IMG/VR virus record: IMGVR_UViG_3300046009_013647
Location: 1 to 28,445 of that record
Direction: 5' to 3' (one strand)
Source of the DNA: a virus
Length of the DNA stretch: 28,445 nt
Shown one piece after another: positions 2,918-22,361 of this stretch. A program made the translations under genes and the position numbers. How positions within the stretch are numbered: position 1 is the stretch's first letter; each line of letters opens with the position of its first letter. The notes under the pieces are model-generated. The model made no database searches, was not told where the DNA came from, and saw only the letters and a program-made list of their open reading frames with translations.

Positions 2918-3188
2918 TTTTTGCTTTTTTACGTCGTTTTTCTTCTTTGTCAAGTTCTACTAAAACAGAATCGGCTTGTGCACGTAGTTTTACGTTTACT
3001 GTCTCTAAAGAATCAGAATGGTCCTCTAGTTTTTTAATTCTAGCTTCGCTCTCTACTCGTTGCTGTTTCAATTGTTGTTGAAATGCCTTTTTATATGTGT
3101 TAGGCATCATGAACATTTGAAAAAGGATAACCCCCAGCAAGGTGATTATCACCAATAGCTGGGGGTTCTTTTTAATTAGGGATAGCAT
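2832..3188 (-). CDS. i-spanin-like membrane protein (N-terminal TM plus coiled coil)
   Basis: A 118-aa protein with a short basic N-terminus, one membrane helix (about residues 9-28, QLLVIITLLGVILFQMFMM) and then a long charged heptad-like coiled coil to about residue 105, ending DELPGYFSKRYSR. This is the architecture of Rz-type inner-membrane spanins, which with a partner fuse inner and outer membranes at the end of lysis. Its 3' end overlaps the next gene in another frame, supporting the pair. It starts at a TAATG junction with the AT-hook protein gene. A strong hairpin with a T-run is embedded in the first 20 codons, so expression may be attenuated. No holin or endolysin is visible beside it. 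Other single-TM coiled-coil proteins would look similar. Confidence 0.6.
   Translation of the reverse strand: MLSLIKKNPQLLVIITLLGVILFQMFMMPNTYKKAFQQQLKQQRVESEARIKKLEDHSDSLETVNVKLRAQADSVLVELDKEEKRRKKAKNEYDKKMAELGKLSTDELPGYFSKRYSR
3121..3177. terminator. Strong terminator-like hairpin inside the spanin-like gene
   Basis: AACCCCCAGC (3129-3138) pairs perfectly with GCTGGGGGTT (3158-3167). A second palindrome, GGTGATTATCACC, sits in the loop (3141-3153). On the plus strand the stem is followed directly by CTTTTTAATT; on the minus strand by ATCCTTTTTC. The C5/G5 runs stand out in this AT-rich DNA. The hairpin lies within the membrane-helix codons of the minus-strand gene, so it could act as an attenuator for the lysis genes and terminase, or stop antisense transcripts. 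Confidence 0.6.
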
Positions 3189-3955
3189 TATTTTAACTTA
3201 GCTATAGCTGCATCAATAGCAGGCTTAGCTTTTGCCCATTCAGCAGCATATATTTCTTTATCTAATACACGGTTAGCGGCATCTACAACACCTTTGTCTC
3301 TTAAACCTTTCAAGAAGGCTTTAACCATTTTAGTTTTTTCTTGTTGGCGAAGTTGAGAAATTTTGCTTTTCTCTACTTTACCACCTGAGCTAGCAAGTGA
3401 TCTTAATTCAGCATCAGATGGACCTTCTTTATCGTCAGCGTAGTATTTTCTATCATCGCCCATTTTATATGTCTTTTGGGTTGCTTTTTTAGCAGCAGCA
3501 GACATTTTTGGAGTAGCAGATTTAGGACGGCCACGCATTCCACCTTCTTTTTTCTCTTTTTCAGGTTTGTTTGGATCAGCTTTACGACCGCGTTGACCAA
3601 CTTCTCTTTCGCCTCTTACTAAGTCGATAAATTTGTTAAGTTGGTTATCGAATAGATCATCGTCTGGTCCTAGAGCTGCTTGAACATCATCATCGGTTTT
3701 AATAGCCTTACGAATATCTTTCTTTTCACCGTCTTTGTTCTTTTCGATTACTTTTTCGATTGCTACTTTTAGATCACCTGCAATTTTAGCCATTTCGTTA
3801 AGAGCCTCATCTTCAGCTACTACTTTAACTGTATCACCAGGTTTTAATCTGTCTTTGATTTTATCAACCTCTCCAGCTTTAGACTGAAACTCGGCTTCGT
3901 TAAGCTCACTGATGATCATCTCGCGGATAGCAGACTTTAATTTAGATATTTTCAT
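3188..3955 (-). CDS. AT-hook-like DNA-binding protein with capsid-targeting-type leader
   Basis: A 255-aa, Lys-rich protein of no family I recognise. I start it at 3955 (MKISKLKSAIREMI); a longer frame to 4105 would run out of frame through the upstream kinase gene and is not credible. The leader ends ELNE (E20) followed by Ala, matching the L-x-E/A rule of T4-type prohead proteases. Further in are an acidic patch (TDDD..GPDDD, 87-100) and two basic AT-hook-like cores, QRGRKADP (121-128) and MRGRPKSATP (140-149), which in other proteins bind the minor groove of AT-rich DNA. The C-terminal third is helical (KMVKAFLKGLRDKG). A promoter-type element lies 24 bases upstream. A role as packaged, DNA-associated head protein is inferred. 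Confidence 0.72.
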   Translation of the reverse strand: MKISKLKSAIREMIISELNEAEFQSKAGEVDKIKDRLKPGDTVKVVAEDEALNEMAKIAGDLKVAIEKVIEKNKDGEKKDIRKAIKTDDDVQAALGPDDDLFDNQLNKFIDLVRGEREVGQRGRKADPNKPEKEKKEGGMRGRPKSATPKMSAAAKKATQKTYKMGDDRKYYADDKEGPSDAELRSLASSGGKVEKSKISQLRQQEKTKMVKAFLKGLRDKGVVDAANRVLDKEIYAAEWAKAKPAIDAAIAKLK

Positions 3956-3979
3956 CTCTAGATATATTATAGTTTTCTT

Positions 3980-3987
3980 ATAAATAT
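3980..3987 (-). promoter_or_regulatory. ATATTTAT element before AT-hook gene
   Basis: The minus strand reads AATATTTATAAG, ending 24 bases before the ATG at 3955 and touching the stop codon of the upstream kinase gene. It is one of seven copies in intergenic gaps. Confidence 0.4.
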
Positions 3988-4517
3988 TACAGAGAAAGTG
4001 TCTCTTTAATTTGTTGAATGCGATTTTCAGTAGTTCCTGAAATGCTGTGAAAGTTTTGTATTCTGTGTTTGTTTGACTTAATAAGATGGTTAATTGTAAA
4101 ATCAATTAAGTTACGATATTCCAGATTTGTTTCGCGTACACCATTATTTTCCATCTCTACACCCTCAGGAGATACATAAAAGATATAATCATATTCTGAA
4201 ATAAAATTACGAGCAAAATCAGTAAATGCCTCTTTATCAATATGATTTATTGTTTTAGATGCAATTGCAAACGCCATAACATCAATTACAGTACGATCTG
4301 TAATGATATTTTCTTGTATAAGCTCCATAGCTCGTTCAGCTAAAAATACTGTTTGACCTTTTAGTGTTGAGTCAGTATTTAATGGAATGCCTTGTTCCAT
4401 CAAATATTTTGAACGCTCAGTCCTGAAAGTATAATCTTTAAATTCAGGTAGCTCTTTAAGAGCATTTACAAGTGTAGTTTTACCTACACTCATTGTCCCA
4501 CATAATCCTATCTTCAT
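3987..4517 (-). CDS. P-loop nucleotide kinase/ATPase, NadR-like (AAA_28-type)
   Basis: A 176-aa P-loop protein with Walker A GTMSVGKTT (residues 7-15 from MKIGLCG). An aspartate-bearing strand follows (ITDRTVIDVMAFA), as in small-molecule kinases and the ATPase part of NadR, which phosphorylates nicotinamide riboside. I choose ATG 4517, which makes an ATGA overlap with the methyltransferase gene; ATG 4526 adds three residues. The protein is little more than the kinase core, with no helix-turn-helix and no nucleotidyltransferase. It ends the four-gene set that begins with the FAD enzyme at 7256. Substrate is unknown: a nucleoside, a sugar or an NAD precursor are all possible. Confidence 0.75.
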   Translation of the reverse strand: MKIGLCGTMSVGKTTLVNALKELPEFKDYTFRTERSKYLMEQGIPLNTDSTLKGQTVFLAERAMELIQENIITDRTVIDVMAFAIASKTINHIDKEAFTDFARNFISEYDYIFYVSPEGVEMENNGVRETNLEYRNLIDFTINHLIKSNKHRIQNFHSISGTTENRIQQIKETLSL

Positions 4518-5623
4518 ACTCTCCAAAAATACAAAAAGCTTTGATTACCGGCAATGGATACATGAAAATTAAAACCATATTGGTGAATAGTTTTAATAAA
4601 TTCTGTTCGAGCTTCTTCAGAATACCCAAATACATCTTCGTGATATTCAATAAAAATTTTACTAATTTTAGCCCAAGTTTCTGGTTGAATTGAAGGGATA
4701 AGTTCTTTTTCTCCACCTTCAATATCAATTTTAAGATAGTCTATTTTTTCTATATTATTACGTTCAATAATATCTTCTAAAGTAGTACATTTTAATATGC
4801 GTTTTACTTGCCAATTAGGCCACATACTAATTTCCATAAACCCTTTTTTATTAGAAACAGCAATATTTTCTAGTGTCCAATTTTTACCTGAGTTTTTCTG
4901 AAGAGCTTTAAATACATCTGGGTCAGGTTCAACAGCATAAATTTTAGATGCTCCTTTACTTTCAGCATAAGCACAATTCATACCAATATTAGATCCTAAA
5001 TCAACATAGATATCTCCTGGGTTAAGTTGGAAAAATTCGTTATCTAATTCTTTATGAGTAATGTTAGACCAATGCATAGCAGCTTCCCACCCAAGTTCTG
5101 CTTCAGCTTCTGCTTGAGAAATGGTATGAAGGTTCATACTAGAAAAATCAATCAATTTGTCATTTAAAGACCAAAATTTAGTTAAATCTCTAGATACTAC
5201 AACTTCTGGCAATTGCTGTTGAATAATTTCATTTACAAAATCATCTTGTGAACTGCCTGGTATAATACGATAACTATCTTCTTCATAGTGTTTAGTAGAT
5301 ACTTCAAAAATAGTAGCGCCTTCAGTTAATGCTGTAAGCTGGTGGGGTTGACCTCTTTCAAGATCAATTATATCTCCTTCTTTAATAGTTACAGTTTTAA
5401 CAGCTGCTTTTTCAGTATCGACCCAACTGTATTCAAATTCTCCTTTAGCTACATACCACGATTCTTTTTTAATCAAATGGTAGTGCATTGAAAACTTTTT
5501 ATCTTTACCAAATACTAGGAGTTTACCACAGTATTCTTCATCATTAATAATCCAAAGCTCATGTCCCCAAGCTTTTTTATAAAAGTCACCTTGACGAGGT
5601 ACTGGTTCGTATTTATGTCCCAT
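4514..5623 (-). CDS. Cupin-FkbM methyltransferase fusion
   Basis: A 369-aa two-domain protein. Residues about 10-115 form a single cupin barrel with metal ligands visible in MHYHLIKKES (H47, H49, E54) and PHQ (H94), of the type seen in sugar isomerases/epimerases. Residues about 195-365 are an FkbM-type SAM-dependent methyltransferase: VDLGSNIGMN (207-216) is the SAM loop, VEPDPD (231-236) the acidic ribose-binding turn, and DYLKIDIEGGE (295-305) the family signature. FkbM enzymes methylate sugar or polyketide hydroxyls. I place the start at 5623, a TAATG junction; the frame extends to 5665 but would overlap the 90-aa gene. A role in modifying a glycan or nucleotide-linked sugar is inferred. 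Confidence 0.85.
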   Translation of the reverse strand: MGHKYEPVPRQGDFYKKAWGHELWIINDEEYCGKLLVFGKDKKFSMHYHLIKKESWYVAKGEFEYSWVDTEKAAVKTVTIKEGDIIDLERGQPHQLTALTEGATIFEVSTKHYEEDSYRIIPGSSQDDFVNEIIQQQLPEVVVSRDLTKFWSLNDKLIDFSSMNLHTISQAEAEAELGWEAAMHWSNITHKELDNEFFQLNPGDIYVDLGSNIGMNCAYAESKGASKIYAVEPDPDVFKALQKNSGKNWTLENIAVSNKKGFMEISMWPNWQVKRILKCTTLEDIIERNNIEKIDYLKIDIEGGEKELIPSIQPETWAKISKIFIEYHEDVFGYSEEARTEFIKTIHQYGFNFHVSIAGNQSFLYFWRV

Positions 5624-5895
5624 TAGAATCGAGTTGTTCCGCGCATTGATGGATTTTTGTACCAAGGTAAGCCTTCTCTATTTTTACGGGCTTCTTCCCA
5701 CTGCTCAAGTGTTAGTTGGCGACCATATAAATGATATTCTTTTTTATATTCTGATTCTTCACCTTCGATAGGTTGAACCGCTGGTCCATCCCAATTGTGG
5801 TATTTCCAAGCATCACTACCACTTTCTTTAAAGAAATAGTGGTGTGCCCCTTTAGATCTCATTCGGCGTTCTTCGTAAATTGTTTCTTTTTTCAT
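5623..5895 (-). CDS. Small conserved-looking phage protein, function unknown
   Basis: A 90-aa protein with many Glu, Lys, Trp and Tyr residues. The most distinctive part is WKYHNWDGPAVQPIEG (residues 30-45), followed by YHLYGRQLTLEQWEEARK and GLPWYKNPS. The DGPA and LYGR pieces look like short beta-hairpin repeats of the MORN or wd-like kind, but only one full copy is present. It is translationally coupled on both sides: ATGA with the FAD dehydrogenase stop, TAATG with the cupin-methyltransferase start. I recognise the style from other aquatic phages but know no function. The coupling suggests it serves the same pathway as its neighbours. Confidence 0.7.
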   Translation of the reverse strand: MKKETIYEERRMRSKGAHHYFFKESGSDAWKYHNWDGPAVQPIEGEESEYKKEYHLYGRQLTLEQWEEARKNREGLPWYKNPSMRGTTRF

Positions 5896-7256
5896 ACTGC
5901 GTAATGGCTTAAAAATTCCGGATATTCGGTATCGCGAAGGTAATAAGAAAGAATGTCCTCGGCAACGTATATTGCCTGAGCTCCTGAAACTGTTATACCT
6001 CTAGCTGATAAAGCATCACCTACAAAGTGTACATTTGAGAACTTAGTAAGAGATAAGTTACGGTAGTTTACAAGTGGTTCTGGTGAAAGATATTTTACCT
6101 CGGGAACGTAAATACCCCAATCGTCTTGTAGTGTTGGAAATACTTTTTTCATATCCTCGATAAAATCCATAATATAGCTCCAATATTCACCCATTACGTT
6201 TTCTACTCCACTTAAATTATCGATTTGGAAAGCTGATACACCATTGCCTTCTGAGGTAGTAGAGGGGATTCGAGTAGGTGAATAGTATAAACCAGTACCA
6301 CCAAATTGAAGCTTGTTTACCACATCACGTGACCAAGTAAATGGATCTTCAATACCATTGATTTCCATCAAGATGCCAAAATTGGTCATCCCGTTTAGAT
6401 ATTTTGGATCTTTTTTAGCGTGGCCGTTATAGCTATGATCTCCATATGTTTCCTCTACAGCAACGTAAGCAGCATTGTTGTTTGTACAGAATGAGCGAAG
6501 CGAAACACCTTTATCTTCAAATTTGCGATACAACTTAAAGTCGTATGAAATATCAATTAGTTTTTGGAAGTGTTTTTGTGGTGCTTCAAATCGAACACCA
6601 ATTTGTACTGATTTGGGTTCATCTGGTAGGGTATATTCGTTTGCTAATTGTTGAGCAAAATCAATACCTGATTTACCTACAGCAAATATAAGTTCATCAT
6701 AGTCTAAAGTAGATATATTTAGTATAGGATTTGTAAGGTTAGTATAATTAACTTTATTAGCAATCATGGCTATCCCTGTTACTTTATTTTCCCAAATAAA
6801 TTTAACACCTTTAGACACTAAATAATCGTACCAGTTTTTAGCAATTTCAGATAGGTAATCTGTACCTACGTGCCATACAGGAAACAATCGTAAACCGAAG
6901 TATGGTTTAATGAAATCTGGTTCTGTATCTGGATTTGAACATTGTACTTCCTCTGGTTTAGGGTGGAAACGCTTAAAATTGGTGATGACTTGATCCATCA
7001 ATTCCATTGCTTTTTCCTCACCACAATACTTAGACAATTGACCTCCAATTGCTGTGTGATAAGTTAATTTACCATCTGACCAACCACCTGCTCCTAAAAA
7101 CCCTGTCATTACCTCTTCGGGTAAGCGGGTATATGGGTCTTTACCCATATCAATGATTGTGATTAGTTCACCAGGATAACCTTTATCTACAAGTTTGGTA
7201 GCAGCATTCACTCCTGCCACACCTGCACCTACGATTACAATTTTCTTTTCCTTCAT
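5892..7256 (-). CDS. FAD-dependent dehydrogenase (COG2509-like)
   Basis: A 454-aa flavoprotein. The N-terminal Rossmann motif KIVIVGAGVAGVNAA (GxGxxG at 10-15) binds the FAD ADP moiety. The segment GAGGWSDGKL (about 55-64) matches the loop typical of the uncharacterised NAD(FAD)-dependent dehydrogenases grouped as COG2509. The C-terminal HFVGDALSARGITVSGAQA is the usual FAD-closing motif. The length is near normal, so the enzyme looks intact. It is the first gene of a coupled set with the 90-aa protein, the cupin-methyltransferase and the kinase. A full-length enzyme of this kind is unusual in a phage and probably acts on a nucleotide or cofactor. Substrate is not known even for the cellular family. 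Confidence 0.85.
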   Translation of the reverse strand: MKEKKIVIVGAGVAGVNAATKLVDKGYPGELITIIDMGKDPYTRLPEEVMTGFLGAGGWSDGKLTYHTAIGGQLSKYCGEEKAMELMDQVITNFKRFHPKPEEVQCSNPDTEPDFIKPYFGLRLFPVWHVGTDYLSEIAKNWYDYLVSKGVKFIWENKVTGIAMIANKVNYTNLTNPILNISTLDYDELIFAVGKSGIDFAQQLANEYTLPDEPKSVQIGVRFEAPQKHFQKLIDISYDFKLYRKFEDKGVSLRSFCTNNNAAYVAVEETYGDHSYNGHAKKDPKYLNGMTNFGILMEINGIEDPFTWSRDVVNKLQFGGTGLYYSPTRIPSTTSEGNGVSAFQIDNLSGVENVMGEYWSYIMDFIEDMKKVFPTLQDDWGIYVPEVKYLSPEPLVNYRNLSLTKFSNVHFVGDALSARGITVSGAQAIYVAEDILSYYLRDTEYPEFLSHYAV

Positions 7257-7287
7257 ATTTCTATTTGTTACGCGTTAAGATAATTAA

Positions 7288-7324: not shown

Positions 7325-7353
7325 GTAAATTGTTCTAAGCGACTGGCTATGAA

Positions 7354-7623: not shown

Positions 7624-8227
7624 TCATATCGTAATAAAAAGAATCTCCATCTTCAGTAATCCATCTATCAGATTGATTTTCCACGCTTGGAAGTTCTGTA
7701 TCTACTTTATATTGCTTTAAATCCTCTGGAAGTGGTTTAGTTACCCAGTTTGAGTCTTTCCAGAATATTCTATTATTGGGCATACACATTAAATATCCTT
7801 CATCGGATTCAAATATATGACCACATTTGTAATCTGTTGGTTCATCGCTGTATGGATTATTAAACCAATCTACAGTAAACATATATGTGCCCCAAACTTT
7901 ACTTCCGTCTCTTAAAACAATTTGTGCTCTGTGGTATGCTAAAAAGCTATATTCTATAACAGCTACGTTTTCACTAAAACAATCCCATAACTGTTTAAAG
8001 TTAAAGGGAATATCGTTTGTTGGAATTTCTGTATAAATTTCGGAAAGTGGAACACGAGAACGAATCATTCCGTTATCTGTCATAACGTGGAATGTTAATA
8101 TAGTTCCTGCGCAAGATTGAAGACCAAAAACGTATACATTATAGAATTCGTTATGGTCTTCTTGGTTTTTTGTAAAATATGATTTACGAACTAGCGCTTT
8201 AAAGCTAGGAATGTTTGCGTTAAGCAT
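7610..8227 (-). CDS. Hypothetical phage protein, 205 aa
   Basis: A soluble-looking protein with no membrane segment, rich in aromatic residues (W, Y, F) and acidic at the C-terminus. The N-terminal half (FYNVYVFGLQSCAGTILTFH) looks beta-rich; the middle has the segment AYHRAQIVLRDGSKVWGTYM (residues about 98-117), and the C-terminal part ends DGDSFYYDMNETV. I recognise no catalytic motif or family. It begins at a TAATG junction with the tagged 105-aa gene and overlaps the following 89-aa gene by 14 bases. It carries no L-x-E/A leader, unlike most genes upstream of it, so it marks the edge of the tagged cluster. Confidence 0.7.
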   Translation of the reverse strand: MLNANIPSFKALVRKSYFTKNQEDHNEFYNVYVFGLQSCAGTILTFHVMTDNGMIRSRVPLSEIYTEIPTNDIPFNFKQLWDCFSENVAVIEYSFLAYHRAQIVLRDGSKVWGTYMFTVDWFNNPYSDEPTDYKCGHIFESDEGYLMCMPNNRIFWKDSNWVTKPLPEDLKQYKVDTELPSVENQSDRWITEDGDSFYYDMNETV

Positions 8228-8544
8228 TAATTTTCTCTGATAAGTAGTTCACCTAGTACCTCTAAACGACCAACTTCACGTTGGAATTCTGTTTGGGTCA
8301 TATCTAATGATATTTTTTTATAGGTTTCATCAAATTCTTTTTTAGCTGCTTCTTTATCAAATTTACCTTTTATAGCTTTTTTATAGTAGGATGGTTTAAC
8401 ATTAAAGTGGGTGTATGTTAATAAAGCATCGCCGCCTTTTTCTTTAGCATTAGCTATAATTTTTTCAGCACCTGCTAAACGATTTTCAGCAAATGTTTCA
8501 AAGCTTTCTTTAGCTTCGGTTAGTAGTTGAAGCAATTTAATCAT
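8227..8544 (-). CDS. Small helical protein with T4-like capsid-targeting leader
   Basis: A 105-aa, mostly helical and Lys/Glu-rich protein. Its first ten residues, MIKLLQLLTE, are followed by Ala. This matches in length and in the L-x-E/A junction what I know of T4 internal proteins (MKTYQEFIAE before Ala), whose leader carries them into the prohead and is then removed by gp21. The remainder (AKESFETFAENRLAGAEKII and a basic YYKKAIKGKFDKEAAKK) has no motif I recognise. It lies between the Cys-rich 203-aa gene (1-bp gap) and the 205-aa gene (1-base overlap). An internal head protein is the best inference. Confidence 0.72.
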   Translation of the reverse strand: MIKLLQLLTEAKESFETFAENRLAGAEKIIANAKEKGGDALLTYTHFNVKPSYYKKAIKGKFDKEAAKKEFDETYKKISLDMTQTEFQREVGRLEVLGELLIREN

Positions 8545-8545
8545 A

Positions 8546-9157
8546 TCACCAAAATCCTGAAAAGTTAGACTTAAGTCCTAATAGTTTAGCATAACGTGGT
8601 AGACGGCAGCTCCAATATGAAGCCTTTGTTCTATCTTTTTTATTTTTACAATCGTGGCGAGCTGCAAATGCTCTACGTGCTTCTGGGTTATTAATCTTAG
8701 CTGATAAGCCGGTTGTATCACCAAATGATACTTTTTTAATTCCACCCCCAGGTTTTCTTACGTAAACGTAGAATTTTTTAGAACCTCCACGTTTTGGTTT
8801 ACCAATTGGAGGATTTTTCTTTTTCTTGTCGGCTTCGTCTATTTCCTGCTCTTCAAAGATAAAATCTAAAGGTACTTTTTGATTCTCGTATAAACCGAAA
8901 TGACCTAAATCGGTTTCAGTTAGTATCTCTAAATCATCTCCTTGTACCTCAATGATGTTGCGGCTATATAAAGCGCGTGCTTCTGCCCATAAATTAAAAT
9001 AGCTCTCCGAGCCTGCACGGTACACGTGCTCTGTAAGAGGTCGTGCGTTATCTAAGTGATATTTCAACCCTTCGGAAAGAATTGCTCTTGGTGCTACACT
9101 TTCGTTTAGCATTACTGGTTTTTTAGTATCGCAAGTATTGCAGCCGCAGTCACACAT
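8546..9157 (-). CDS. Tagged protein with basic Cys C-terminal module
   Basis: A 203-aa protein with three visible parts. The N-terminus MCDCGCNTCD has four Cys in ten residues and could bind metal. Two protease-type junctions follow: MLNE/S (E19) and ILSE/G (E29). After an acidic middle (FIFEEQEIDEAD) a basic C-terminal module begins with GSKKFYVYVRKPGGGIKKV and ends AFAARHDCKNKKDRTKASYW then SCRLPRYAKLLG. I have seen this ARH-x-C...YWSCR pattern at the ends of other marine phage proteins but know no function; Lys/Arg content and two Cys suggest nucleic-acid binding. It sits 1 bp after the nuclease-like gene. Packaging in the head is inferred from the leader. Confidence 0.72.
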   Translation of the reverse strand: MCDCGCNTCDTKKPVMLNESVAPRAILSEGLKYHLDNARPLTEHVYRAGSESYFNLWAEARALYSRNIIEVQGDDLEILTETDLGHFGLYENQKVPLDFIFEEQEIDEADKKKKNPPIGKPKRGGSKKFYVYVRKPGGGIKKVSFGDTTGLSAKINNPEARRAFAARHDCKNKKDRTKASYWSCRLPRYAKLLGLKSNFSGFW

Positions 9158-9158
9158 A

Positions 9159-10133
9159 TTATTTAAATAATTTAGGGAAGTTCATACCTAATTCAGAAGA
9201 TGAAACGTAAACACCGTTTAAAATTCTTTCATCATCTATAGCATCTATTACAGCATCGTTCATAAGATAAAATTTACCTCGCCCGTTTACACTTACGTTT
9301 AGTATATATCCTACATCTTTACCCATTCTGGGTTTTTTTAATAGCTTAGTTTTTAAGATTTGCTTAAGTAATTTAGCTGCTCCTTCTTGTGGGGATGCTG
9401 AAGGTGCTAATTCTAATCTAGAATATAAAGCATCAATACTAGCATATAAAGGTTCAAACGCATCTATATCTCTTAGCTGTTTATTTTTTTCAAACATAGC
9501 CATGATATCAAAAGCTGGGATTATATCTCGTGCTTTAAAATTGCCGGCATTAACTGTAACTTCAGATTCTGCATCAAATTTACTAAATAAGGTTAAAAGA
9601 GATACTACTTTATTTAATAATTTTATATTTTCTTTATCACCAGAAAATTTACCTAGTGTAATATTGGATGTATCGTATGATTTAATTTCGCATCCAATAC
9701 CATCAATGGTTAAATCCGGATCTTCACCTTTTCTAGAATCGGTAACGTTGTGTTTGTTAACGTTAAATTCAAAAGCCCAGTATGTAGCGATTTCTCCTTT
9801 ACCAGCTCCTGCGGTTGGAACTTCACTATCTTTTTTTAGTGGGAGGGTTGGGTATAATTTTTCCCAAATTTTTTCGTCTTCTCCACCTAAGTTAAAATCT
9901 TCACCTAGCTTTAAAGGAGTATTACATGTTGGAATTTTTTCCCCAGTTTTTAAACCTAGTGCTTTACGAATCCTTTCGTTATAGTCAATTTGTGCTTCGT
10001 TGATAATAAATTCGCCCATAAAATCTTCTGCTAGTTCAAACAACATAGCTTTATCTTTTGGGTTGTTCATATCAGGATACCCCTTTGGGAATTTCCAACC
10101 TACACTTTTAATAAATTTATCTAAACTGTCCAT
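9159..10133 (-). CDS. Tagged PD-(D/E)xK nuclease-like protein
   Basis: A 324-aa protein. The N-terminal module (residues 1-46) contains SVGWKFPKGYPDMNNPKDKA, a string I associate with the starts of several marine phage proteins, and ends FIINE/A (E46), a protease-type junction. The body carries GAGKGEIATYW (about 109-119) and then DPDLTIDGIGCEIKSYD, where D..(D)..E-x-K spacing fits a PD-(D/E)xK nuclease core as in restriction enzymes. No DNA-recognition domain is recognised. It is joined to the 149-aa gene by a TAATG overlap. If the leader is cut, a nuclease would be carried in the virion, able to act on host DNA on entry; that role is inference, and only a fold comparison would settle the nuclease call. 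Confidence 0.72.
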   Translation of the reverse strand: MDSLDKFIKSVGWKFPKGYPDMNNPKDKAMLFELAEDFMGEFIINEAQIDYNERIRKALGLKTGEKIPTCNTPLKLGEDFNLGGEDEKIWEKLYPTLPLKKDSEVPTAGAGKGEIATYWAFEFNVNKHNVTDSRKGEDPDLTIDGIGCEIKSYDTSNITLGKFSGDKENIKLLNKVVSLLTLFSKFDAESEVTVNAGNFKARDIIPAFDIMAMFEKNKQLRDIDAFEPLYASIDALYSRLELAPSASPQEGAAKLLKQILKTKLLKKPRMGKDVGYILNVSVNGRGKFYLMNDAVIDAIDDERILNGVYVSSSELGMNFPKLFK

Positions 10134-10582
10134 TATACTCCGGGTTCAGCTGCTGGTTCTTCTATTGTTGTTTCGGTCTCTGTTGAGGTAGTTTCTATTC
10201 CATTAGCAGGTGCCTCTGCTTTGCTACCATAACGTAATATACGAGAGATAGATTCGCAAGCCGACTCTTCCTCATTTAAGTTAAGTAGGTAATATTTTTT
10301 ACCTTCTACTTGAGCGATCCAGCTTTTGGGTGTGTAAATAAGATAGAAATCTTGTCCGTTTTTTAAATTGATACGGAATGTTGTAGGACGAGGAGCAACC
10401 CAATCAATTGAGGCTAAAAAGTAGTCGAAATCCGGAGATAACAGATCTACTATAACCGCTTTAAGTTCTGGGAATTTTGTTAGCTCATCGTATTCGGCAG
10501 CAGCAACGTCAGCCTTAAGTCTGCCTCTGTAGACATCCTTGGCTAACGTTCTGATTTTGGCTACGAGTTCTTCACGAGTCAT
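10133..10582 (-). CDS. Hypothetical phage protein with acidic tail, 149 aa
   Basis: The protein starts MTREELVAKIRTLAKDVYRG, a helical region, followed by a beta-looking core RINLKNGQDFYLIYTPKSW (about 71-89) and KKYYLLNLNEEESA. The last 30 residues are a low-complexity Thr/Glu/Pro tail (TSTETETTIEEPAAEPG). No leader of the L-x-E/A kind is present. It is coupled to both neighbours by 1-base TAATG overlaps, so it is translated with the tagged 439-aa protein and the nuclease-like protein. I recognise no family with a known function. Confidence 0.72.
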   Translation of the reverse strand: MTREELVAKIRTLAKDVYRGRLKADVAAAEYDELTKFPELKAVIVDLLSPDFDYFLASIDWVAPRPTTFRINLKNGQDFYLIYTPKSWIAQVEGKKYYLLNLNEEESACESISRILRYGSKAEAPANGIETTSTETETTIEEPAAEPGV

Positions 10583-15081: not shown

Positions 15082-15606
15082 TTATCCTTGCATTTGCCCT
15101 TTACAAACTTTAACAGCACGACCTGAGAGATAAGCGGATGATTTTTCTCCAGCTGCTTGTCTCTTTTTGATATATGCTTTACCTTTTGGGCAAAGTTCCT
15201 CGTATACCATATTTTCACCTAAACGGATAGTCTCGTCAATATCATCTACGTTAGCAATCTTCATTAAGATTCTGTCTAATACCGCTGGTGTAAGGCCTGG
15301 TGTTTTACCTCCTGGAAATTCGGGGTCGTCTTTTAAATATTGTGAATAGCCTGTTTCTTCTTCGATTGGTTCGCCTACAATATCAGTGTAATCTTCCATT
15401 GAAAGAAGACCTCTTAACTTAACTGCCTCGATAGCGCGTTCTGTTACCTTGTGTAGATCAATATCTTGTTCGGCGTCCTCTCTTGCGTATTCTAACATGC
15501 GAAGAAATAGGGGCACATCCATTGCGATAATGTCTGTTGGGTCTTCTTGTGATTGCTCTGGGAGTGGTTTAGAGAAGAATTCTTGTACTTTTTTTAGGTC
15601 TTTCAT
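15082..15606 (-). CDS. Phage protein with basic Cys-pair C-terminal module, 174 aa
   Basis: The N-terminal two thirds are acidic and helical, with DVPLFLRMLEYAREDAEQDI (residues 30-49) and LTPAVLDRILMKIANVDDID (105-124), both strings I associate with marine phage proteins of unknown function. The last 40 residues form a basic module bounded by Cys139 and Cys168: ELCPKGKAYIKKRQAAGEKS then SAYLSGRAVKVCKGQ. This CxKGK...SAYxxGxAVxVCKG pattern also looks like a mobile phage module. No L-x-E/A leader is seen at the N-terminus. The gene overlaps the 161-aa gene (ATGA) and precedes the membrane-segment gene by 4 bp. Confidence 0.72.
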   Translation of the reverse strand: MKDLKKVQEFFSKPLPEQSQEDPTDIIAMDVPLFLRMLEYAREDAEQDIDLHKVTERAIEAVKLRGLLSMEDYTDIVGEPIEEETGYSQYLKDDPEFPGGKTPGLTPAVLDRILMKIANVDDIDETIRLGENMVYEELCPKGKAYIKKRQAAGEKSSAYLSGRAVKVCKGQMQG

Positions 15607-16088
15607 TTTTTGTTAAATCTAATTCTTGGCCAGAAATCTCTTTCTCCAGGTTCATAATCATAATCAAAGTTAGATCGTTTTTTATCTACTATATAACCTT
15701 TAGATTCGATCCAATTAATCATTCTTTCAGCTGTGTCGTCTCCAATAATATCTTTTGTACGTATAGTGATACTATCTTCATCACTACTAGCTCGGACTTT
15801 AAATTCTTCACTGAATTCTTCGCCTAAACTTTTTTCAGCTTCATTTAAAGATTCTTTCATACCTAATTCGGCGTGAAGTATATCCATAAAAGGATTAAAA
15901 TTTTGAGAACCGTATTCGTCCTTTAAAATTTTAGCTACTGCTAAAGCAAAATCCTTATATGATAGATTTTCATCTACGGTTTCAATTGCCTTGCTAATTA
16001 CTGTAGCAGTTTTATCAGAGATATTTTCTAGAAGACCTGCTTCTGAAAGATATTGTTGCTTAAACCATTTAGTAGTATTGAATCCCAT
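15603..16088 (-). CDS. Tagged helical protein, 161 aa
   Basis: The leader MGFNTTKWFKQQYLSE/A (E16) is amphipathic and ends in an L-x-E/A junction, the best match to a capsid-targeting sequence in this stretch. The body is acidic and helical up to about residue 85 (including ESLNE/A as a second possible site), then a C-terminal beta-like part (FKVRASSDEDSITIRTKDI ... ERDFWPRIRFNKK). No known domain is recognised. A promoter-type element lies 13 bases before the start. It overlaps the following 174-aa gene by 4 bases. Packaging into the head is inferred from the leader. Confidence 0.72.
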   Translation of the reverse strand: MGFNTTKWFKQQYLSEAGLLENISDKTATVISKAIETVDENLSYKDFALAVAKILKDEYGSQNFNPFMDILHAELGMKESLNEAEKSLGEEFSEEFKVRASSDEDSITIRTKDIIGDDTAERMINWIESKGYIVDKKRSNFDYDYEPGERDFWPRIRFNKK

Positions 16089-16101
16089 AATGTATTTCTT
16101 T

Positions 16102-16109: not shown

Positions 16110-16690
16110 TAGTCTTTCTTTAGACTTTGCAGATATTTAATAGTTTCTTCTTTTGATTCAAGAAGTTTATTTTTTACTGAACCTGTCCATTTTTCAACAT
16201 CACCTGCTTCGGTAATATAGGACTGAATATCACTATGTTCTATTTCTTCGTTAATCCAAATTTGGAATTCTTGGATGATACCTTCAATATCGGAATTATG
16301 TATCATTTTTTCATATTCTTCCCAAAGTCCCTGTTTTCGAATTTCATATTCAAAATCAATTTGACAGTTAAAGCAGCGCTTATACATGCTATACCACTTT
16401 TTATCCAAGTGGGGTTTCATCGGTTTTTTACACGAGGGGCAAAAAATCGGGAAATTAACTGCTTTACGGGCAGCATCAAGTTTCGTAACATTTTGTTTAA
16501 TGCCCTCCTTAATAGTCCATGTCTTATCTCCTTCAACCCATATATCTCCTTCGCTATGCGGACCTTCTTGCCCTTTTGTAAAACCGACTGATACTTGGGA
16601 TTTATCTGCATGTTTGCCTTTTACTAAATTTCTTAACCTTTGAACGTCTTTTTCTGCAAATTGTTTTTTTAGAACATTATCTTTACTCAT
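16109..16690 (-). CDS. Zinc-ribbon protein, conserved marine phage type, 193 aa
   Basis: The N-terminal part (MSKDNVLKKQFAEKDVQRLR ... SVGFTKGQ) leads into GDIWVEGDKTWTIKEG (48-63), then a four-Cys zinc ribbon, CPSC (84-87) and CFNC (106-109), with an intervening HLDKKWYSMYKR. The C-terminal third is helical, with SYITE/AGDVEKW (E161 before Ala) as a possible protease site far from the N-terminus. I recognise the overall pattern from T4-like phages of marine bacteria but no function has been assigned to my knowledge. The ribbon suggests nucleic-acid or protein binding. The start overlaps the stop of the 813-aa gene (ATGA). Confidence 0.78.
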   Translation of the reverse strand: MSKDNVLKKQFAEKDVQRLRNLVKGKHADKSQVSVGFTKGQEGPHSEGDIWVEGDKTWTIKEGIKQNVTKLDAARKAVNFPIFCPSCKKPMKPHLDKKWYSMYKRCFNCQIDFEYEIRKQGLWEEYEKMIHNSDIEGIIQEFQIWINEEIEHSDIQSYITEAGDVEKWTGSVKNKLLESKEETIKYLQSLKKD

Positions 16691-19128
16691 AAACCTAGTT
16701 CTTGTAACTGTTTGATTGTGTTAGCTGCTGAAGTGTGTAATATGCCTATACCACCGTTAGCATTCCATTTATCGATAGTATCTTTTCTATCGTCAATTAA
16801 AATTTTGTTTGGTCCCGCAAAATCCGCTTTTCTACCAGCAGAGCGGAAATATATTTTACGCATATTAGGTAAACGTTGAACCCACTCGGTTTTACCTTGC
16901 ATTGATTCATTGTTTTCTACTTTGTAACGCTCCTCAAATGGGATGTCGAAATTAACAGAAGGAGCGGTTAAAACATATGGGTTATATCCTTTGATATAGT
17001 CCCAAAGTTGTTTTCCGTCGGGCATCCAATCTAGGTTAGCCCAATATGAACGTTCGGGAATGTCTTTTTCTTTTAGACTGTTTCTAAATAAACTCCAAAA
17101 TTCGTTTTTACCTTGTGAATCGGCGTGTTGGGTGCTTACACCTGTTAGTTCTTTATACCCCTCATCGAAGTCTACTAACACACCATCCATGTCACAAAAT
17201 ATCACATATTTCTTCTCTCCCATTTCCTTATCCATTTTTTCAACACCCGTATCATGAAGGTACGAGGTCTCTTTTACATAGTCACTGGTAAAGGAGGGTA
17301 AACCTAGAGGTTTTAATCTTTTAGCCCATAAATCAAGAATTTCTTTTCTTTCTTTTTGATTAACAGGTTGCTTGTCTAAATAATCATCTATAACTGCTAA
17401 GAATGGTCTTCTAGATTTTTTGGCTTTAAGGTACATTCCCTGAAGCATAGCATCCACTTCTTTTTCTAGTTTAAAGTAAGCTGATTTAGGAAGTAGATCG
17501 GCATCAATCATTCTTCTTAAAAGTGTATCATCATCCATTAACTTTCCAGGTCTTACTAATCTAGGATCTTTTTGAGCTCTAGGATCATCTATTGTAACTA
17601 CTCCCTTTACGTTAGCTCCTTCTTGAGTTAAGTGTTCTAGCTCGTGCCTAATAACGTCTTTTAAATCAAATGATACTGTCTGCCAGTCTATATCTTTGGG
17701 AATATCAAAGCGAACTGAAAGAAGTGGTTGGATTTCTTCATCATTCTCATCATATCCAGCGTTTGCCCCTCCATCTACTTTATAGGTATCTTCTGTGTAG
17801 ACTGCTTGAATTGCAAAATCAAATTCGAAATCATCAGAGACAATATCTGGATCTTCATCAGCTGGTCCTACTACAAATAACTCGTCTACTACTTTTTTAC
17901 CAACATCGTAGCCGTCTTTGATTAACTCAAATGCTAAACGAGAAAGCTCGTTGGTGAATTTATCGTAGCGACCTTCTGTTAGCTGTTCTTCTTCTAACCC
18001 TTGAGCTAGTTCGCGAGCGTATTGGTTTAGACCAAATGGATCTTTTACTTTACCGCTTGGATTATTTTGTTTTTTGTAGTCATCCATGTTTTTATTGGAT
18101 GTTTTTTGACCATCTTCCTGTAAACTATCTGTCCAGTTACGGAACGTCATAGTACCCTTTAGATTAGCTTCAGCTTCAATATCGTTTAGATGATCGTCCT
18201 CTTGAGTATTTGTAGTTGTAATATCTCCTAATCTACCCTCTAGATTTTGAATGTGGTGAATTATCTCATGCGCGTAAGAACGCACAATATCTTTGGGATG
18301 ACGCCCGTAAGTGTATAGGGTGATAGACTTATTGATCGGATCATAGTACGCGGTTTTACCCAAGAATTCTTCGGCATTATTTACGTCATCACCTACTAGC
18401 TCAATGCTAGGAGCTGGATCGATATTGTATCCTTTCCCACGCATGTAATTGGTTAACTCGGCTATTTTTTCGAGTATGTCAATAGATGGAATAGTGTTTT
18501 CTTTTAGTGGTTTGTATCCTGAACCGTATGGGGCTGCTTTGCCTGGTGTTTCTTTTAAAACGTTGGGCTCCAAAATATTGTAGATATCCTCTTTCTCGTT
18601 AGCTGGAATCTCAGTAGGCAAATAAGTGAAGAATTTCTCTTTATCTCCTTTTTGAAGTGCTTTACGAGCGTTTGTTCCGCTCATATCACCAGCTGGAGTT
18701 TTGATTACTCGAACCTCAACGTTTGGGTATTTTTCTTCTACCCCTTTAGTGCGCGATTTGATATCTTGTAGATCGTCTTCTCTACCTTCACGATAACCCA
18801 AAACAAAGTATATTTTCTCGTCTGGGTGGTTTTTAGCGTAACGTAAGATATCTCCGATTGGGGTTGTGGATGGTTCTATTTGAACTTTAGATGGGAGCAA
18901 TTCCTTGTAAATATCCCATACTTGCATAGATTGTTCTTGTTCGATTCCATCTCTAACACCTCCACCAACATAGATTAGAAATTTGTCTATGTCTTTGAAA
19001 TCTTTTAAAGCGGTTTTAACTAAGTCAAAGTGACCTTTGGTAGGTGGTTTAAAACCACCCCCATAGATTGCTGTAACGGATTTTCCGTCTATTAGCTCGT
19101 TAACTAAAAACTTTGTAAGTTGGTCCAT
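16687..19128 (-). CDS. Four-domain protein: nucleotidyltransferase, two zincin-like domains, HAD phosphatase
   Basis: An 813-aa multidomain protein. (1) Residues 17-160 are a cytidylyltransferase-like nucleotidyltransferase: GGGFKPPTKGHFDL (23-36, with the GH of HxGH-type sites) and MSGTNARKAL (149-158) for the downstream S/T-x-x-R motif. (2) About 215-330: AHEIIHH, an HExxH metallopeptidase motif at 287-291. (3) About 384-600: a second HExxH, RHELEH (495-499), in a segment beginning EGRYDKFTNELSRLAFELI. (4) About 638-813: HAD-type phosphatase like 5'(3')-deoxynucleotidases, with FCDMDGVLVDFD (D646, D648), T721, K746 and ILIDD (D779/D780). QLTE/G (E385) between domains 2 and 3 fits the prohead-protease rule, so it may be a polyprotein. 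Leader MDQLTKFLVNE is amphipathic but an imperfect match. It overlaps the zinc-ribbon gene by ATGA. Confidence 0.85.
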   Translation of the reverse strand: MDQLTKFLVNELIDGKSVTAIYGGGFKPPTKGHFDLVKTALKDFKDIDKFLIYVGGGVRDGIEQEQSMQVWDIYKELLPSKVQIEPSTTPIGDILRYAKNHPDEKIYFVLGYREGREDDLQDIKSRTKGVEEKYPNVEVRVIKTPAGDMSGTNARKALQKGDKEKFFTYLPTEIPANEKEDIYNILEPNVLKETPGKAAPYGSGYKPLKENTIPSIDILEKIAELTNYMRGKGYNIDPAPSIELVGDDVNNAEEFLGKTAYYDPINKSITLYTYGRHPKDIVRSYAHEIIHHIQNLEGRLGDITTTNTQEDDHLNDIEAEANLKGTMTFRNWTDSLQEDGQKTSNKNMDDYKKQNNPSGKVKDPFGLNQYARELAQGLEEEQLTEGRYDKFTNELSRLAFELIKDGYDVGKKVVDELFVVGPADEDPDIVSDDFEFDFAIQAVYTEDTYKVDGGANAGYDENDEEIQPLLSVRFDIPKDIDWQTVSFDLKDVIRHELEHLTQEGANVKGVVTIDDPRAQKDPRLVRPGKLMDDDTLLRRMIDADLLPKSAYFKLEKEVDAMLQGMYLKAKKSRRPFLAVIDDYLDKQPVNQKERKEILDLWAKRLKPLGLPSFTSDYVKETSYLHDTGVEKMDKEMGEKKYVIFCDMDGVLVDFDEGYKELTGVSTQHADSQGKNEFWSLFRNSLKEKDIPERSYWANLDWMPDGKQLWDYIKGYNPYVLTAPSVNFDIPFEERYKVENNESMQGKTEWVQRLPNMRKIYFRSAGRKADFAGPNKILIDDRKDTIDKWNANGGIGILHTSAANTIKQLQELGL

Positions 19129-19491
19129 TTACTTAAGCTTCATGATAAGCTCTTTGGCCTTGCTTTTCTTTTCTTCAATTTCTTTTTTAGCTGTTCTGTA
19201 CTCGTCCATTTCACGCTTAAGAGCTTCTTTCTGCATTTCGTACTCTTTCATAGCTAATTTAGCTGCCTTACGAGCTGCTGATTTATTATTAGAAGTGTAA
19301 GCACCCGCAATCTCGTTCATATCAATTTGATCATAGATTGAAGCAGGACGAACCATATCGTCCATAGACATACCTCTTTTAGGTTTCATTACAAGAATGA
19401 TCTCGCCGATCTCGTTATATGGCTCTACCATTTCCATTGTTTCTGCTTCAAGGGCTTCCTTGATAAGGGATTTTAATACTGATTTTTTCAT
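19129..19491 (-). CDS. Tagged coiled-coil protein, 120 aa
   Basis: The leader MKKSVLKSLIKE/ALEAE (I10-K11-E12 before Ala13) is amphipathic and fits the protease rule; it resembles MKKSELKEMIKTAFLSE of the protein at 13298. The middle contains IGEIILVMKPKRGMSMDDMV. From about residue 65 on the protein is a Lys/Glu-rich coiled coil (AARKAAKLAMKEYEMQKEAL to the end). No catalytic motif is seen. It overlaps the kinase gene by ATGA and abuts the 813-aa gene directly (stop next to start). An internal or scaffold-like head protein is the likeliest reading. Confidence 0.72.
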   Translation of the reverse strand: MKKSVLKSLIKEALEAETMEMVEPYNEIGEIILVMKPKRGMSMDDMVRPASIYDQIDMNEIAGAYTSNNKSAARKAAKLAMKEYEMQKEALKREMDEYRTAKKEIEEKKSKAKELIMKLK

Positions 19492-20291
19492 GAGTTAAGG
19501 AATTGTTTTATTTTAGATTGTGCTTCTGGGATAGAAACGGTTTGTTGTAAAATGTCTTGAACGTTTTTCTCGTCGCGTAATGATATAATTTCTTGTTCAA
19601 GTTTTTCTTTTTCAGCTCTAGATCTAGCCTGTTCTTTTTCTGTTTTTGGTTTAGTATCTTGAGGGGTAAATGGTTCGAGGTAGCGCTTTACGATTTTATC
19701 TAAGCTTGCTTTACCGAATGGATCCTTATCTTTTGTAGTAGCTACAAAGTTTTGACCGAATAAGTTAAGGTACGGGATAAAGTTTTTAGTTACGTTAGCC
19801 CACGTTTGCATTACAATACCAGGCATTAAACTTCTATCCTCACCAGCAGAACGCTCGAATCGATCTTCGTTTTTCTTAAGTGATTTCTCAAGTGAAGAAT
19901 ATACAAACACCATCATTACATCGTACCCAGCTGCCTCTAAAGTATTTTTTAGCGATTCTGTTTTCTTGTATGATGCTGCTGTACCATCGATTACGATGTT
20001 TTCTCTAGAGCCAATCTCTTGTGCTAAAGCCTCTTGATAGTCTTTTTGGGCAGCTTGCATAGCACGAGCAGCTCCACTTCTACCTTCAGCATCTGCCATT
20101 TTTAAGTCAAGTGAAATACCTGCGTCGCGAAGGTTTTTGATAAAGAAATCGTCAATGTTCATTACTTTTAAACCAAGGTCTCTAATAACATCGTCTATAA
20201 CAGAGGATTTACCAGCGCCAGGGGCACCAGCTAAAATAATAGCTTTAGGGGCACCTTGTGCCTCTCTAAGTAATCTCACTAATGAAATCAT
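19488..20291 (-). CDS. Tagged P-loop kinase, zeta-toxin-like
   Basis: A 267-aa protein. Its first ten residues, MISLVRLLRE, are followed by Ala11, the same length and junction as T4 internal-protein leaders. Immediately after comes Walker A GAPGAGKSS (22-30), then MNIDDFF (44-50), a DGTAAS segment near 97-102 and a C-terminal charged coiled coil. The layout fits small P-loop kinases of the zeta-toxin/AAA_33 group, which phosphorylate nucleotide sugars or other small substrates. If the leader is cut, an active kinase would be carried in the head and could act in the newly infected cell; that is inference. It has a promoter-type element 16 bases upstream and overlaps the next gene by ATGA. Substrate is not determinable. 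Confidence 0.82.
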   Translation of the reverse strand: MISLVRLLREAQGAPKAIILAGAPGAGKSSVIDDVIRDLGLKVMNIDDFFIKNLRDAGISLDLKMADAEGRSGAARAMQAAQKDYQEALAQEIGSRENIVIDGTAASYKKTESLKNTLEAAGYDVMMVFVYSSLEKSLKKNEDRFERSAGEDRSLMPGIVMQTWANVTKNFIPYLNLFGQNFVATTKDKDPFGKASLDKIVKRYLEPFTPQDTKPKTEKEQARSRAEKEKLEQEIISLRDEKNVQDILQQTVSIPEAQSKIKQFLNS

Positions 20292-20307
20292 ATACGCGCG
20301 TTTACGT

Positions 20308-20315
20308 ATAAATAT
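20308..20315 (-). promoter_or_regulatory. ATATTTAT element before kinase gene
   Basis: The minus strand reads GATATTTATACG, ending 16 bases before the ATG at 20291, in the 23-bp gap after the nuclease gene. The downstream bases GCGCG are unusually GC-rich for a leader here. Confidence 0.4.
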
Positions 20316-21088: not shown

Positions 21089-22017
21089 ATAAGTTCTATT
21101 TTCTTAGCCATCAAATCATAAGTGGTTAATGGATAAGTGTTTTGGATAAGGTTTGTAAAATTTTCAAAACCCATTTCGCTTGGATCTTTTTCATCCAAAT
21201 CTACGAGGTAAACCTCTTTACCCTCGTTTAATAATAGTTCAGCAAATCGCAAAGCATCCTTCATTGCATCTTTATCCAGAGCAATGTAAATTTGTTTTAC
21301 GGTTGACGTTACAATTCTTTTCATCAAATTCTCTTGCAAGTGTTTTCCAAGCAAGGGAATAGCGTTGCGTTTGATTGCTAAAGCATCAAATGGTCCCTCA
21401 CACAATACGAGTGGAGAGGACCAGTTTACAAATAGCTCAAACGGTATAATATTTTTATTTATTGGTGGATTCTTGTATTTGACTGGGGAATTCGAGTCAA
21501 AGTTACGAGCCACGAAATAGTTTAGTTTAGCTTCGCTGCTATACGAGGGTATAACGATCATTTTGTTATATACACCACCCTCACAATAACCAATATTGTA
21601 TTTAAGTATATCGTGTTTAGAAATACCGCGCTTCTTTAAATAGTTTAAAGCATGTCTTCCTATAATATCGTTTTTGGTAAGCTCTGATAGTGGTTTAAAT
21701 TCTTTAGGTAGTTCTACCTTGCTAGAATTTTCACTAGAGGTGATTTGTCTTGTAGACCCTACTAATGAGCGTAGCTCGTTTATTTTATCTAACGGAGCAT
21801 CTATCTTTTTGAATAAACTAAGTAGTTTAGAGCCTCTAGCATCGCAAACCCAACAGTGCCAACTCTGAAAGTGAGTAGCATTCTCATCAAAACTGATTTC
21901 GAGTTTGGGTTTGTGGTGGTTACATAGGGGACAAATATGTGCTTGATTACCTCGAGCAGTGGGTTTACCGTGTCCTATAACAGAGTTAACTAAGTTGACT
22001 ACTAGTTGATTTACCAT
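21085..22017 (-). CDS. DNA primase, T4 gp61/DnaG-type
   Basis: A 310-aa primase that makes RNA primers for lagging-strand synthesis, normally with a replicative helicase. It has an N-terminal zinc-binding domain, CPLC (29-32) and CWVC (55-58), and a TOPRIM catalytic domain: LVLCEGPFDALA (203-214, E207), IYIALDKD (243-250, D248 and D250) and DEKDPSEMG (275-283). Length is close to T4 gp61 (about 340). No helicase gene is in the window. A hairpin with a T-run ends only about 19 bases before the ATG, so synthesis may be limited at the transcriptional or translational level. It is followed by the PD-(D/E)xK nuclease with a 4-base overlap. Confidence 0.93.
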   Translation of the reverse strand: MVNQLVVNLVNSVIGHGKPTARGNQAHICPLCNHHKPKLEISFDENATHFQSWHCWVCDARGSKLLSLFKKIDAPLDKINELRSLVGSTRQITSSENSSKVELPKEFKPLSELTKNDIIGRHALNYLKKRGISKHDILKYNIGYCEGGVYNKMIVIPSYSSEAKLNYFVARNFDSNSPVKYKNPPINKNIIPFELFVNWSSPLVLCEGPFDALAIKRNAIPLLGKHLQENLMKRIVTSTVKQIYIALDKDAMKDALRFAELLLNEGKEVYLVDLDEKDPSEMGFENFTNLIQNTYPLTTYDLMAKKIELI

Positions 22018-22028
22018 GCGAACAAGGT

Positions 22029-22056
22029 AAAAAAGAAAGCTTGGATAACCAAGCTT
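22029..22056 (-). terminator. Intrinsic terminator or attenuator just before primase
   Basis: On the minus strand, AAGCTTGG (22056-22049), loop TTAT, CCAAGCTT (22044-22037) form a perfect 8-bp stem followed by TCTTTTTT. It ends the transcript carrying the 87-aa tagged gene. The primase ATG follows after about 12 more bases, too close for an ordinary promoter between them, so read-through or an attenuator is implied. Confidence 0.65.
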
Positions 22057-22097
22057 AACTTTAAAGATATTTTATTTAATTTATCTCAAATATTTCC

Positions 22098-22361
22098 TTA
22101 TCGGTAATGATCAATTCTGTCTTGTAATGTATCAATAATAAATTGGATTGCTAATTCTTCCCTAGTTGGGCTAAAATATTCACTATCATCATCAACAATG
22201 CCTGAACTGAATACTGAAGAATTTAAAAATGTTTCTACTTCACCTTCTAAGAAAATTTTTTCTTCTAGAGTTAATGGTGGTGCTTCATTTTCGTTTTCTT
22301 TTAAAACACCTGCTAATTTTTGCATGCGTTTAATTTCTTCAGATAAAATTTGTTTCCCCAT
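22098..22361 (-). CDS. Small acidic tagged protein, 87 aa
   Basis: It starts MGKQILSEEIKRMQKLAGVL, with ILSE (E8) before Glu and VLKE (E22) before Asn. The string RMQKLAGVLKE recurs almost exactly as RMKKLAGLLTE in the 237-aa protein at 13298-14011, and I associate similar RMxxLAG strings with many marine phage proteins. The rest is acidic and helical (LTLEEKIFLEGEVETFL, REELAIQFIIDTLQDRI). No enzyme motif is seen. It stands between the GIY-YIG-type gene (41-bp gap holding a promoter-type element) and the hairpin before primase. I infer a head-targeted protein from the leader style. Confidence 0.68.
   Translation of the reverse strand: MGKQILSEEIKRMQKLAGVLKENENEAPPLTLEEKIFLEGEVETFLNSSVFSSGIVDDDSEYFSPTREELAIQFIIDTLQDRIDHYR

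Follow-up and report, generated by a model that had tools for sequence, protein, structure and literature searches.

In phage T4 the internal proteins IPI-IPIII and Alt, which are cut by the gp21 protease, share a short N-terminal leader ending in L/I-x-E on otherwise unrelated bodies, and a review of the T-even phages describes their internal proteins as a diverse set of bodies behind one conserved leader (PMC3012670). This kind of system is therefore already known. Here we consider a stretch of DNA of 28,445 bases from an aquatic T4-like phage (IMG/VR record IMGVR_UViG_3300046009_013647, positions 1 to 28,445; the window), in which a block of genes at 3188-22361 encodes unrelated proteins with leaders of this form. 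Two of the window leaders match the 10-residue T4 register. Unlike T4, one phage group here has several leader families, with leaders of up to about 33 residues, exchange of leaders on one body, enzyme-like bodies, and about ten such genes in one 19-kb block. An initial annotation of the window proposed that a varied set of proteins carries capsid-targeting leaders of the T4 type, and this is supported by the sharing and exchange of leaders, by the form of the head proteins and the presence of the protease in relatives, and by leader-bearing enzymes in cyanophage virions.

The giant phages phiKZ and SPN3US also package many proteins in the head, and a related protease cleaves several of these after Glu, but several of their propeptides exceed 100 residues and the available text does not describe them as interchangeable (PMC5694885). 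In the cyanophages S-CREM2, S-SM1, S-SCSM1, S-SZBM1 and S-CBWM1 a nucleotidylyltransferase has been found in the virion by mass spectrometry (PMC3037559, PMC10665884, PMC9602691, PMC9146016), and the three of these that we checked (S-CREM2, S-SM1 and S-SCSM1) carry a T4-register leader on it; word searches within two cyanophage virion papers gave no mention of a leader. The transferase-like protein of the window differs from that of cyanophage Syn9 in that the two show no pairwise BLAST match at an expectation value (E) of 1e-3. Among the open-licence PMC papers listed by our searches we found none that reports leaders of this type for aquatic phages, and what appears to be new here is the number of leader families, the swapping of leaders, the enzyme-like nature of the bodies and the extension to aquatic phages.

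Leaders shared and exchanged among unrelated proteins

All 38 genes called in the window lie on the minus strand, which holds for every window feature given below. The 11 junctions cited in the initial annotation are all present at the gene starts it named, and the excess over shuffled sequences that it expected was found, with 11 of 27 block genes carrying [LI]xE[AGS] where 3.05 would be expected (P 5.4e-5; motif ending at residues 5-50, expectation from shuffles of the same residues). The gene at 2832-3188, which straddles the block border, was excluded from this count and has no site. Outside the block the motif occurs in 0/3 window genes on one side and 0/7 on the other, and when the window and six relatives are pooled it is densest at residues 5-19 (86 of 12,930 positions, 0.7%), compared to 360 of 157,932 positions (0.23%) beyond residue 60. 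Several details of the first reading stood only in part. The leaders had been called amphipathic, which is weakly supported by a mean hydrophobic moment of 0.39 in 11 leader genes versus 0.30 in 27 others (P 0.047). Some leaders are longer than first read, and one, MGKQILSEEIKRMQKLAGVLKE/N at 22361, was overlooked. The E19/S site at 9157 is present but is not a clear leader end, as relatives match from residue 31, directly after E29/G, in 8 of the 18 phage records with a relative; E46/A at 10133 is also present but falls in a linker modelled with low confidence, and the conserved leader in front of it is longer.

It should be noted that the same motif test on the whole T4 genome gave 32 against 25.0 expected (z 1.5), and that the motif was not enriched in Syn9 (z 1.2), HTVC008M (0.8) or Mel-JY01 (0.3). 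As T4, where the answer is known, and these other genomes lack enrichment, the bare motif is a weak marker, and a genome-wide [LI]xE[AGS] count was dropped as main evidence, being too weak even in T4.

Comparison of whole N-termini was more telling. Genes were called in the window, in phage immuto (the Flavobacterium phages of the immuto group are the closest named relatives by terminase, 59% identity), in six IMG/VR relatives and in fetched loci, skipping genes at piece ends. This gave 3,834 genes, of which 3,140 were kept after removing duplicates and products below 50 residues, and these were grouped into 1,087 body families after removal of the first 30 residues, or of 20 in short proteins. 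Five leader patterns recur: class A, MKKSELKxxIKE...; class B, MxNFDLxKYLxE; class C, MISLIxLLKE; class D, MxFNxxKW...YLxE; and class E, MKKQILSEEFxRMQKLAGIITE. Given as family sums observed, with shuffled first 30 residues, and in windows at interior Met residues (available in only 642 of the 1,087 families), the values were 37.6, 2.5 and 2.5 for class A, 26.6, 0.0 and 0.5 for B, 30.2, 0.3 and 0.0 for C, 8.6, 0.1 and 1.0 for D, and 15.5, 0.0 and 0.6 for E. Since the class patterns were written post hoc on data already viewed, we added a pattern-free test with the 22 N-terminal residues of one protein from each of 809 families, removing pairs with any BLAST match between bodies. It revealed 620 alike N-terminus pairs (score at least 40) involving 185 families, against 3 pairs with shuffled N-termini, 9 with residues 41-62 and 16 with the C-terminal end. 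This sharing is stronger evidence than the motif count.

The leaders also end at fixed places. Past the prefix, the first L/I-x-E has its Glu at residue 12 in 40 of 46 class B leaders, at residue 10 in 84 of 100 class C leaders and at residue 16 or 17 in 11 of 12 class D leaders. For the block kinase (19488-20291), Glu10 is invariant in 15 of 15 aligned homologs picked from a family of 51, and residues 11-14 are variable. The proposed preference for A, G or S after the Glu is looser than claimed, at 49% of 100 class B-E families versus a background of 20.6% (P 2.5e-10), hence these residues are favoured and not required; class A was excluded from this test because its pattern overlaps the site.

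Different leaders are found on the same body. Clustering gave 11 families with at least two leader classes, and aligning pairs from seven of them, along with the kinase, yielded five clean swaps. The proteins of L133 (class B) and L142 (class E) have the same body (65% identity over 102 columns), the alignment beginning right after one leader and six residues past the other. Bodies are likewise common to G001 (B) and L016 (C) at 44% identity, to L127 (A) and L168 (C) at 42%, this body being of the same kind as that of the window protein at 19129-19491, and to immuto (B) and L181 (E) at 31%; the window kinase (C) and that of L196 (B) are the same kinase body at 48%. In a further pair the body of the protein at 14041-14319 is a domain in the longer protein of L150. 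Two candidate swaps were dropped, L036/L157 for an E of 0.94 and L152/G003 as the matching parts were out of line. Nucleotidase-like and transferase-like proteins carry a leader in some relatives and none in others.

The converse, a constant leader with changing bodies, was detected at the 9159-10133 locus. Here the first ~35 residues are kept in relatives, and the bodies of 28 proteins form nine clusters with no BLAST link between them at E 1e-3; the constant-leader gene adjoins a 10133-type gene in 24 of 28 cases and an 8546-type gene in 18 of 28. In the structure model of the window protein (mean predicted local distance difference test score, pLDDT, 75.8) helices at 3-14 and 25-39 are followed by a linker with pLDDT below 50 at 39-47 and then by the body. 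P139, D140, E149 and K151 of this body are invariant in seven sequences, and this residue pattern (E149-x-K151) suggests a PD-(D/E)XK nuclease. A fold search gave no match at E 0.001 or below (a restriction endonuclease ranked 32nd, at E 5.4), which leaves the nuclease fold unconfirmed, and no Pfam family exceeded its cut-off in ten variant proteins of the locus.

Head proteins and protease of relatives, and virion proteomes of cyanophages

Phage immuto and relatives have a T4-like myovirus head module with terminase, portal, protease, scaffold-like protein and gp23 in order, and the window holds the terminase and a partial portal. The order in immuto is tail genes, a block like that of the window, terminase, gp20, three unnamed genes, the protease, a few genes of which one is scaffold-like, and the major capsid protein; scaffold-like is our own reading of the protein encoded between the protease and capsid genes, which carries a different annotation. 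The initial annotation had suggested a search of the neighbouring genome for a gp21-type protease. The 28-kb fragment has no such gene, but an S77 (gp21-type) protease is present in 11 of 12 longer relatives, picked from 80 loci mainly for length, and in all six of T4, Syn9, Mel-JY01, HTVC008M, RM378 and immuto.

The head proteins of the relatives have the same form of N-terminus. In 25 of 29 cases their gp21 has [LIM]xE, with G or S next to it, within residues 15-27, and the major capsid protein has LLE/S or LVE/S at residue 9 in 17 of 18 and LFE/G at 8 in one. Further capsid protein sites lie at about 35 and 60, and near 60 the Glu is followed by T, A, S, N, Q, E or V, so a loose position at that site is normal in this group. 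The gp22-like protein carries LKE/A near residue 8-10 in 14 of 20 relatives, with close variants in the others, and a core-like protein encoded before gp21 carries L/I/V-x-E/G near residue 13 in 18 of 24.

We further compared the number of leader patterns in the 30 kb before the terminase, taken as the block, with the number elsewhere in the window, immuto, G001, G002, G003 and G006. The patterns are concentrated in the block in G001 (3/32 versus 1/202), G002 (9/38 versus 7/202), G003 (8/30 versus 3/113) and immuto (7/29 versus 6/197).

Among cultured phages, the register M-x-x-h-x-x-h-h-x-E is common to T4 IPII and IPIII (MKTYQEFIAE/A), T4 gp24 (MAKINELLRE/S) and the window leaders MIKLLQLLTE/A and MISLVRLLRE/A. 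Starts in this register number 4 in T4 against 0.61 expected and 2 in the window against 0.08 expected, and they were not significant in several relatives or in Syn9 and HTVC008M. Table 3 of PMC10665884 gives the virion proteome of S-CREM2, and in this phage a T4-register leader is found on 5 of 27 non-structural proteins detected in the virion and on 1 of 168 undetected proteins (P 2e-4). This count allowed any in-frame start; the table has 28 non-structural proteins, one of which was unmatched by the gene caller, and the 24 structural ones were left out. The five proteins are an S-adenosylmethionine (SAM) hydrolase, an APH-like kinase, a cytidylyltransferase, gp13 and gp136.

The virion-detected transferase of S-CREM2 has the leader MKNFSSFLTE/A. 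That of S-SM1, detected as T4-GC190 (PMC3037559) and given as GC 190 in the genome record, has MKKFSAFLNE/A, and that of S-SCSM1, detected as QFG06348.1 (PMC9602691) and named so in the genome record, has MKSFLQFLKE/A. Virion transferases are also reported for S-SZBM1 (PMC9146016) and, as cited in PMC9602691, for S-CBWM1, in which a query with the Syn9 transferase gave no match.

Three further observations were made in these genomes. At 87458-91623 of S-SCSM1 the genes flanking the leader-bearing transferase are both annotated as virion proteins, hence the transferase may sit in a small cargo cluster. The virion-detected protein at 7704-10313 of S-CREM2 (L264), annotated as Cas9-like, has FASFMAE/A at residue 25, which is leader-like and set back from the annotated start. 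In the Microcystis phage Mel-JY01 three nearby, alike genes at 60276-62718 start with MIKLxSLxxE, in the same 10-residue register.

Interpretation of the leaders

The leaders are shared among families, have fixed lengths ending in L/I-x-E and are exchanged between bodies, and in relatives the head proteins have the same form and the protease is present. We think it probable that the block proteins belong to the prohead interior and carry exchangeable, gp21-cut capsid-targeting leaders, and that they are delivered to the next host; docking, cleavage, retention in the head and injection are what we infer for the window phage. Each block protein would begin with a short leader of about 10 to 33 residues, drawn from several exchangeable types, and this leader would dock it into the prohead core during head assembly. 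A gp21-type serine protease would then cut after L/I-x-E and remove the leader, and the bodies would remain in the head beside the DNA and enter the next host together. Such bodies would include a zeta-toxin-like kinase, a PD-(D/E)XK-like protein, a protein that resembles a nucleotidylyltransferase and also has parts like a peptidase and a nucleotidase, and small basic or acidic proteins. Leaders and bodies would recombine, with several leaders per body and many bodies per leader. Some of the proteins in the block may belong to the core or scaffold and not be cargo.

Several results weigh against this interpretation. A, G or S follows the Glu in only about half of the class B-E families and in 27 of 88 class A cases, and 6 of the 24 core-like proteins carry Lys or another residue in place of the Glu. 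The terminase N-terminus fits the class A pattern, which we take as chance, and some shared N-termini may belong to very diverged homologs rather than represent exchanged leaders. The placement is not significant in the window (10/28 in the block versus 1/10 elsewhere), G006 shows no concentration in the block (3/23 versus 3/40), and matches outside the block make up 7 of 16 in G002 and 6 of 13 in immuto. The window fragment lacks its own protease gene. The 10-residue pattern used for S-CREM2 was written after its N-termini had been seen, and [LI]xE[AGS] fails to separate its detected (4/28) from its undetected (10/168) proteins (P 0.12). Among the papers listed by our literature searches, none appeared to give virion proteomics for the window phage or immuto.

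The strongest alternative, which we regard as unlikely, is that the leaders mark the prohead core and that most block proteins are scaffold or core proteins, like T4 gp22, gp67 and gp68, destroyed by the protease, with few delivered. The gp22-like and core-like proteins of the relatives do begin with the same kind of leader, and the block has strongly acidic proteins at 13298-14011 (charge of -15 per 100 residues) and 22098-22361 (-11.5), the former with an internal KKLAGLLTEGE stretch. On the other hand, the kinase, transferase and nucleotidase parts keep conserved enzyme motifs, and leader-bearing transferases are detected in purified cyanophage virions.

It is very doubtful that the sharing of N-termini reflects recombination seams, or remnants of recent duplication in front of fast-diverging bodies, without a targeting role. 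Class B leaders are common to tandem neighbours (L133, L160, L200, L219), and on the 25 families with this leader, where amino acid identity is 80%, third codon positions agree slightly more often than expected (78% versus 70%). However, the L/I-x-E is kept at fixed length across many families, different leaders are found on one body, and the ordinary variation at class B third positions indicates that the leader is kept mainly as protein. That the leaders are uncut docking helices for another site, such as the tail, the host membrane or a replication complex, would agree with the loose residue after the Glu and the weak amphipathicity, but we give this the least credence, as the head proteins of relatives share the same form and the leader is associated with virion detection in S-CREM2.

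On the simplest account, which is also the most likely, capsid targeting of the T4 type has here turned modular. There is perhaps an even chance that it amounts to a modular delivery code, in which a few interchangeable head-address tags make any recombined gene virion cargo, with at least one locus (9159-10133) keeping the tag and replacing the body. If so, the protein payloads that aquatic T4-like phages bring into their hosts are large and change fast, and the kept leader with replaced body resembles polymorphic toxins, which keep a trafficking domain. Many 'hypothetical' genes of aquatic phages would become testable virion cargo, and there would be a sequence rule for predicting proteins injected along with phage DNA, as well as a possible reason for the repeated finding of enzymes in cyanophage virion proteomes. 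The swapped leaders would also supply natural building blocks with which to load proteins into phage heads.

Genes of the block and its surroundings

The landmarks at one end of the window are a partial portal protein gp20 (1-904), which is truncated by the window end and resembles immuto gp20 by eye, and a T4-type terminase large subunit (928-2493; Pfam PF03237, 4e-14). The block at 3188-22361 follows, with tail-type genes beyond it.

Two block proteins have class C leaders. The 105-residue protein at 8227-8544 bears MIKLLQLLTE/A (leader bases 8515-8544) in the exact T4 register, and 11 of 15 members of its family have class C leaders; a search for it in cellular genomes gave 171 pattern matches, 0 of them confirmed. 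The zeta-toxin/AAA-type kinase at 19488-20291 (Pfam Zeta_toxin, 4e-16) bears MISLVRLLRE/A (20262-20291). PADLOC gave weak ATPase matches to this kinase only, and none for nine other proteins.

Class A leaders are found on the 255-residue protein at 3188-3955 (MKISKLKSAIREMIISELNE/A, leader bases 3896-3955), on the acidic protein at 13298-14011, which has a net charge of -36 (MKKSELKEMIKTAFLSE/A, 13961-14011), and on the 120-residue protein at 19129-19491 (MKKSVLKSLIKE/A, 19456-19491). Class B leaders are found on the 270-residue protein at 11912-12724 (MSNFDLRKYLVE/GKLYEE, 12689-12724 and perhaps longer; a leader common to 25 body families) and on the 251-residue protein at 14322-15077 (MDNFDLRKYLANNPLLNE, candidate cut E23/A, 15009-15077). 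The 161-residue protein at 15603-16088 has a class D leader (MGFNTTKWFKQQYLSE/A, 16041-16088), and the leader at 22361 is a class E leader (22296-22361) on an 87-residue acidic protein at 22098-22361.

The 92-residue protein at 14041-14319 is very basic (net charge +16) and begins with MTHERLQEIITE/S (leader bases 14284-14319); its body is found from residue 10 on within the L150 protein, which has a class C leader. The 203-residue protein at 8546-9157 has a Cys-rich N-terminus, a body after LSE29/G (bases 9071-9157) and a basic C-terminal part, and its homologs in G002 and G007 have a class A-like leader in front. Basic Cys-containing stretches were seen at 8546-9157, 14041-14319 and 15082-15606, the first two with relatives in other phages, and the three proteins are possible DNA binders in the head.

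The constant leader at 9159-10133, on a 324-residue protein, is about 33 residues long (KFPKGYPDM...LFE, bases 10035-10133). The 813-residue multidomain protein at 16687-19128 has a nucleotidylyltransferase-like N-terminus (GGGFKPPTKGH) behind a short leader-like extension, and a C-terminal 5'-nucleotidase-like HAD part. It has two HExxH stretches, seen by eye, and LTE385/G between the transferase-like and HAD parts; its Pfam matches are all below the Pfam cut-offs.

At 4514-7256 within the block lie a cupin and FkbM methyltransferase protein and an FAD/NAD oxidoreductase-like protein, both leaderless. Between terminase and block, at 2498-3188, an overlapping pair in different frames appears spanin-like by eye only, with a membrane-anchored, coiled-coil-like protein at 2832-3188 and a signal-peptide-like partner beginning inside it at about 2917. 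Beyond the block, a tail-type protein at 25580-27268 bears a long GTSG collagen-like repeat.

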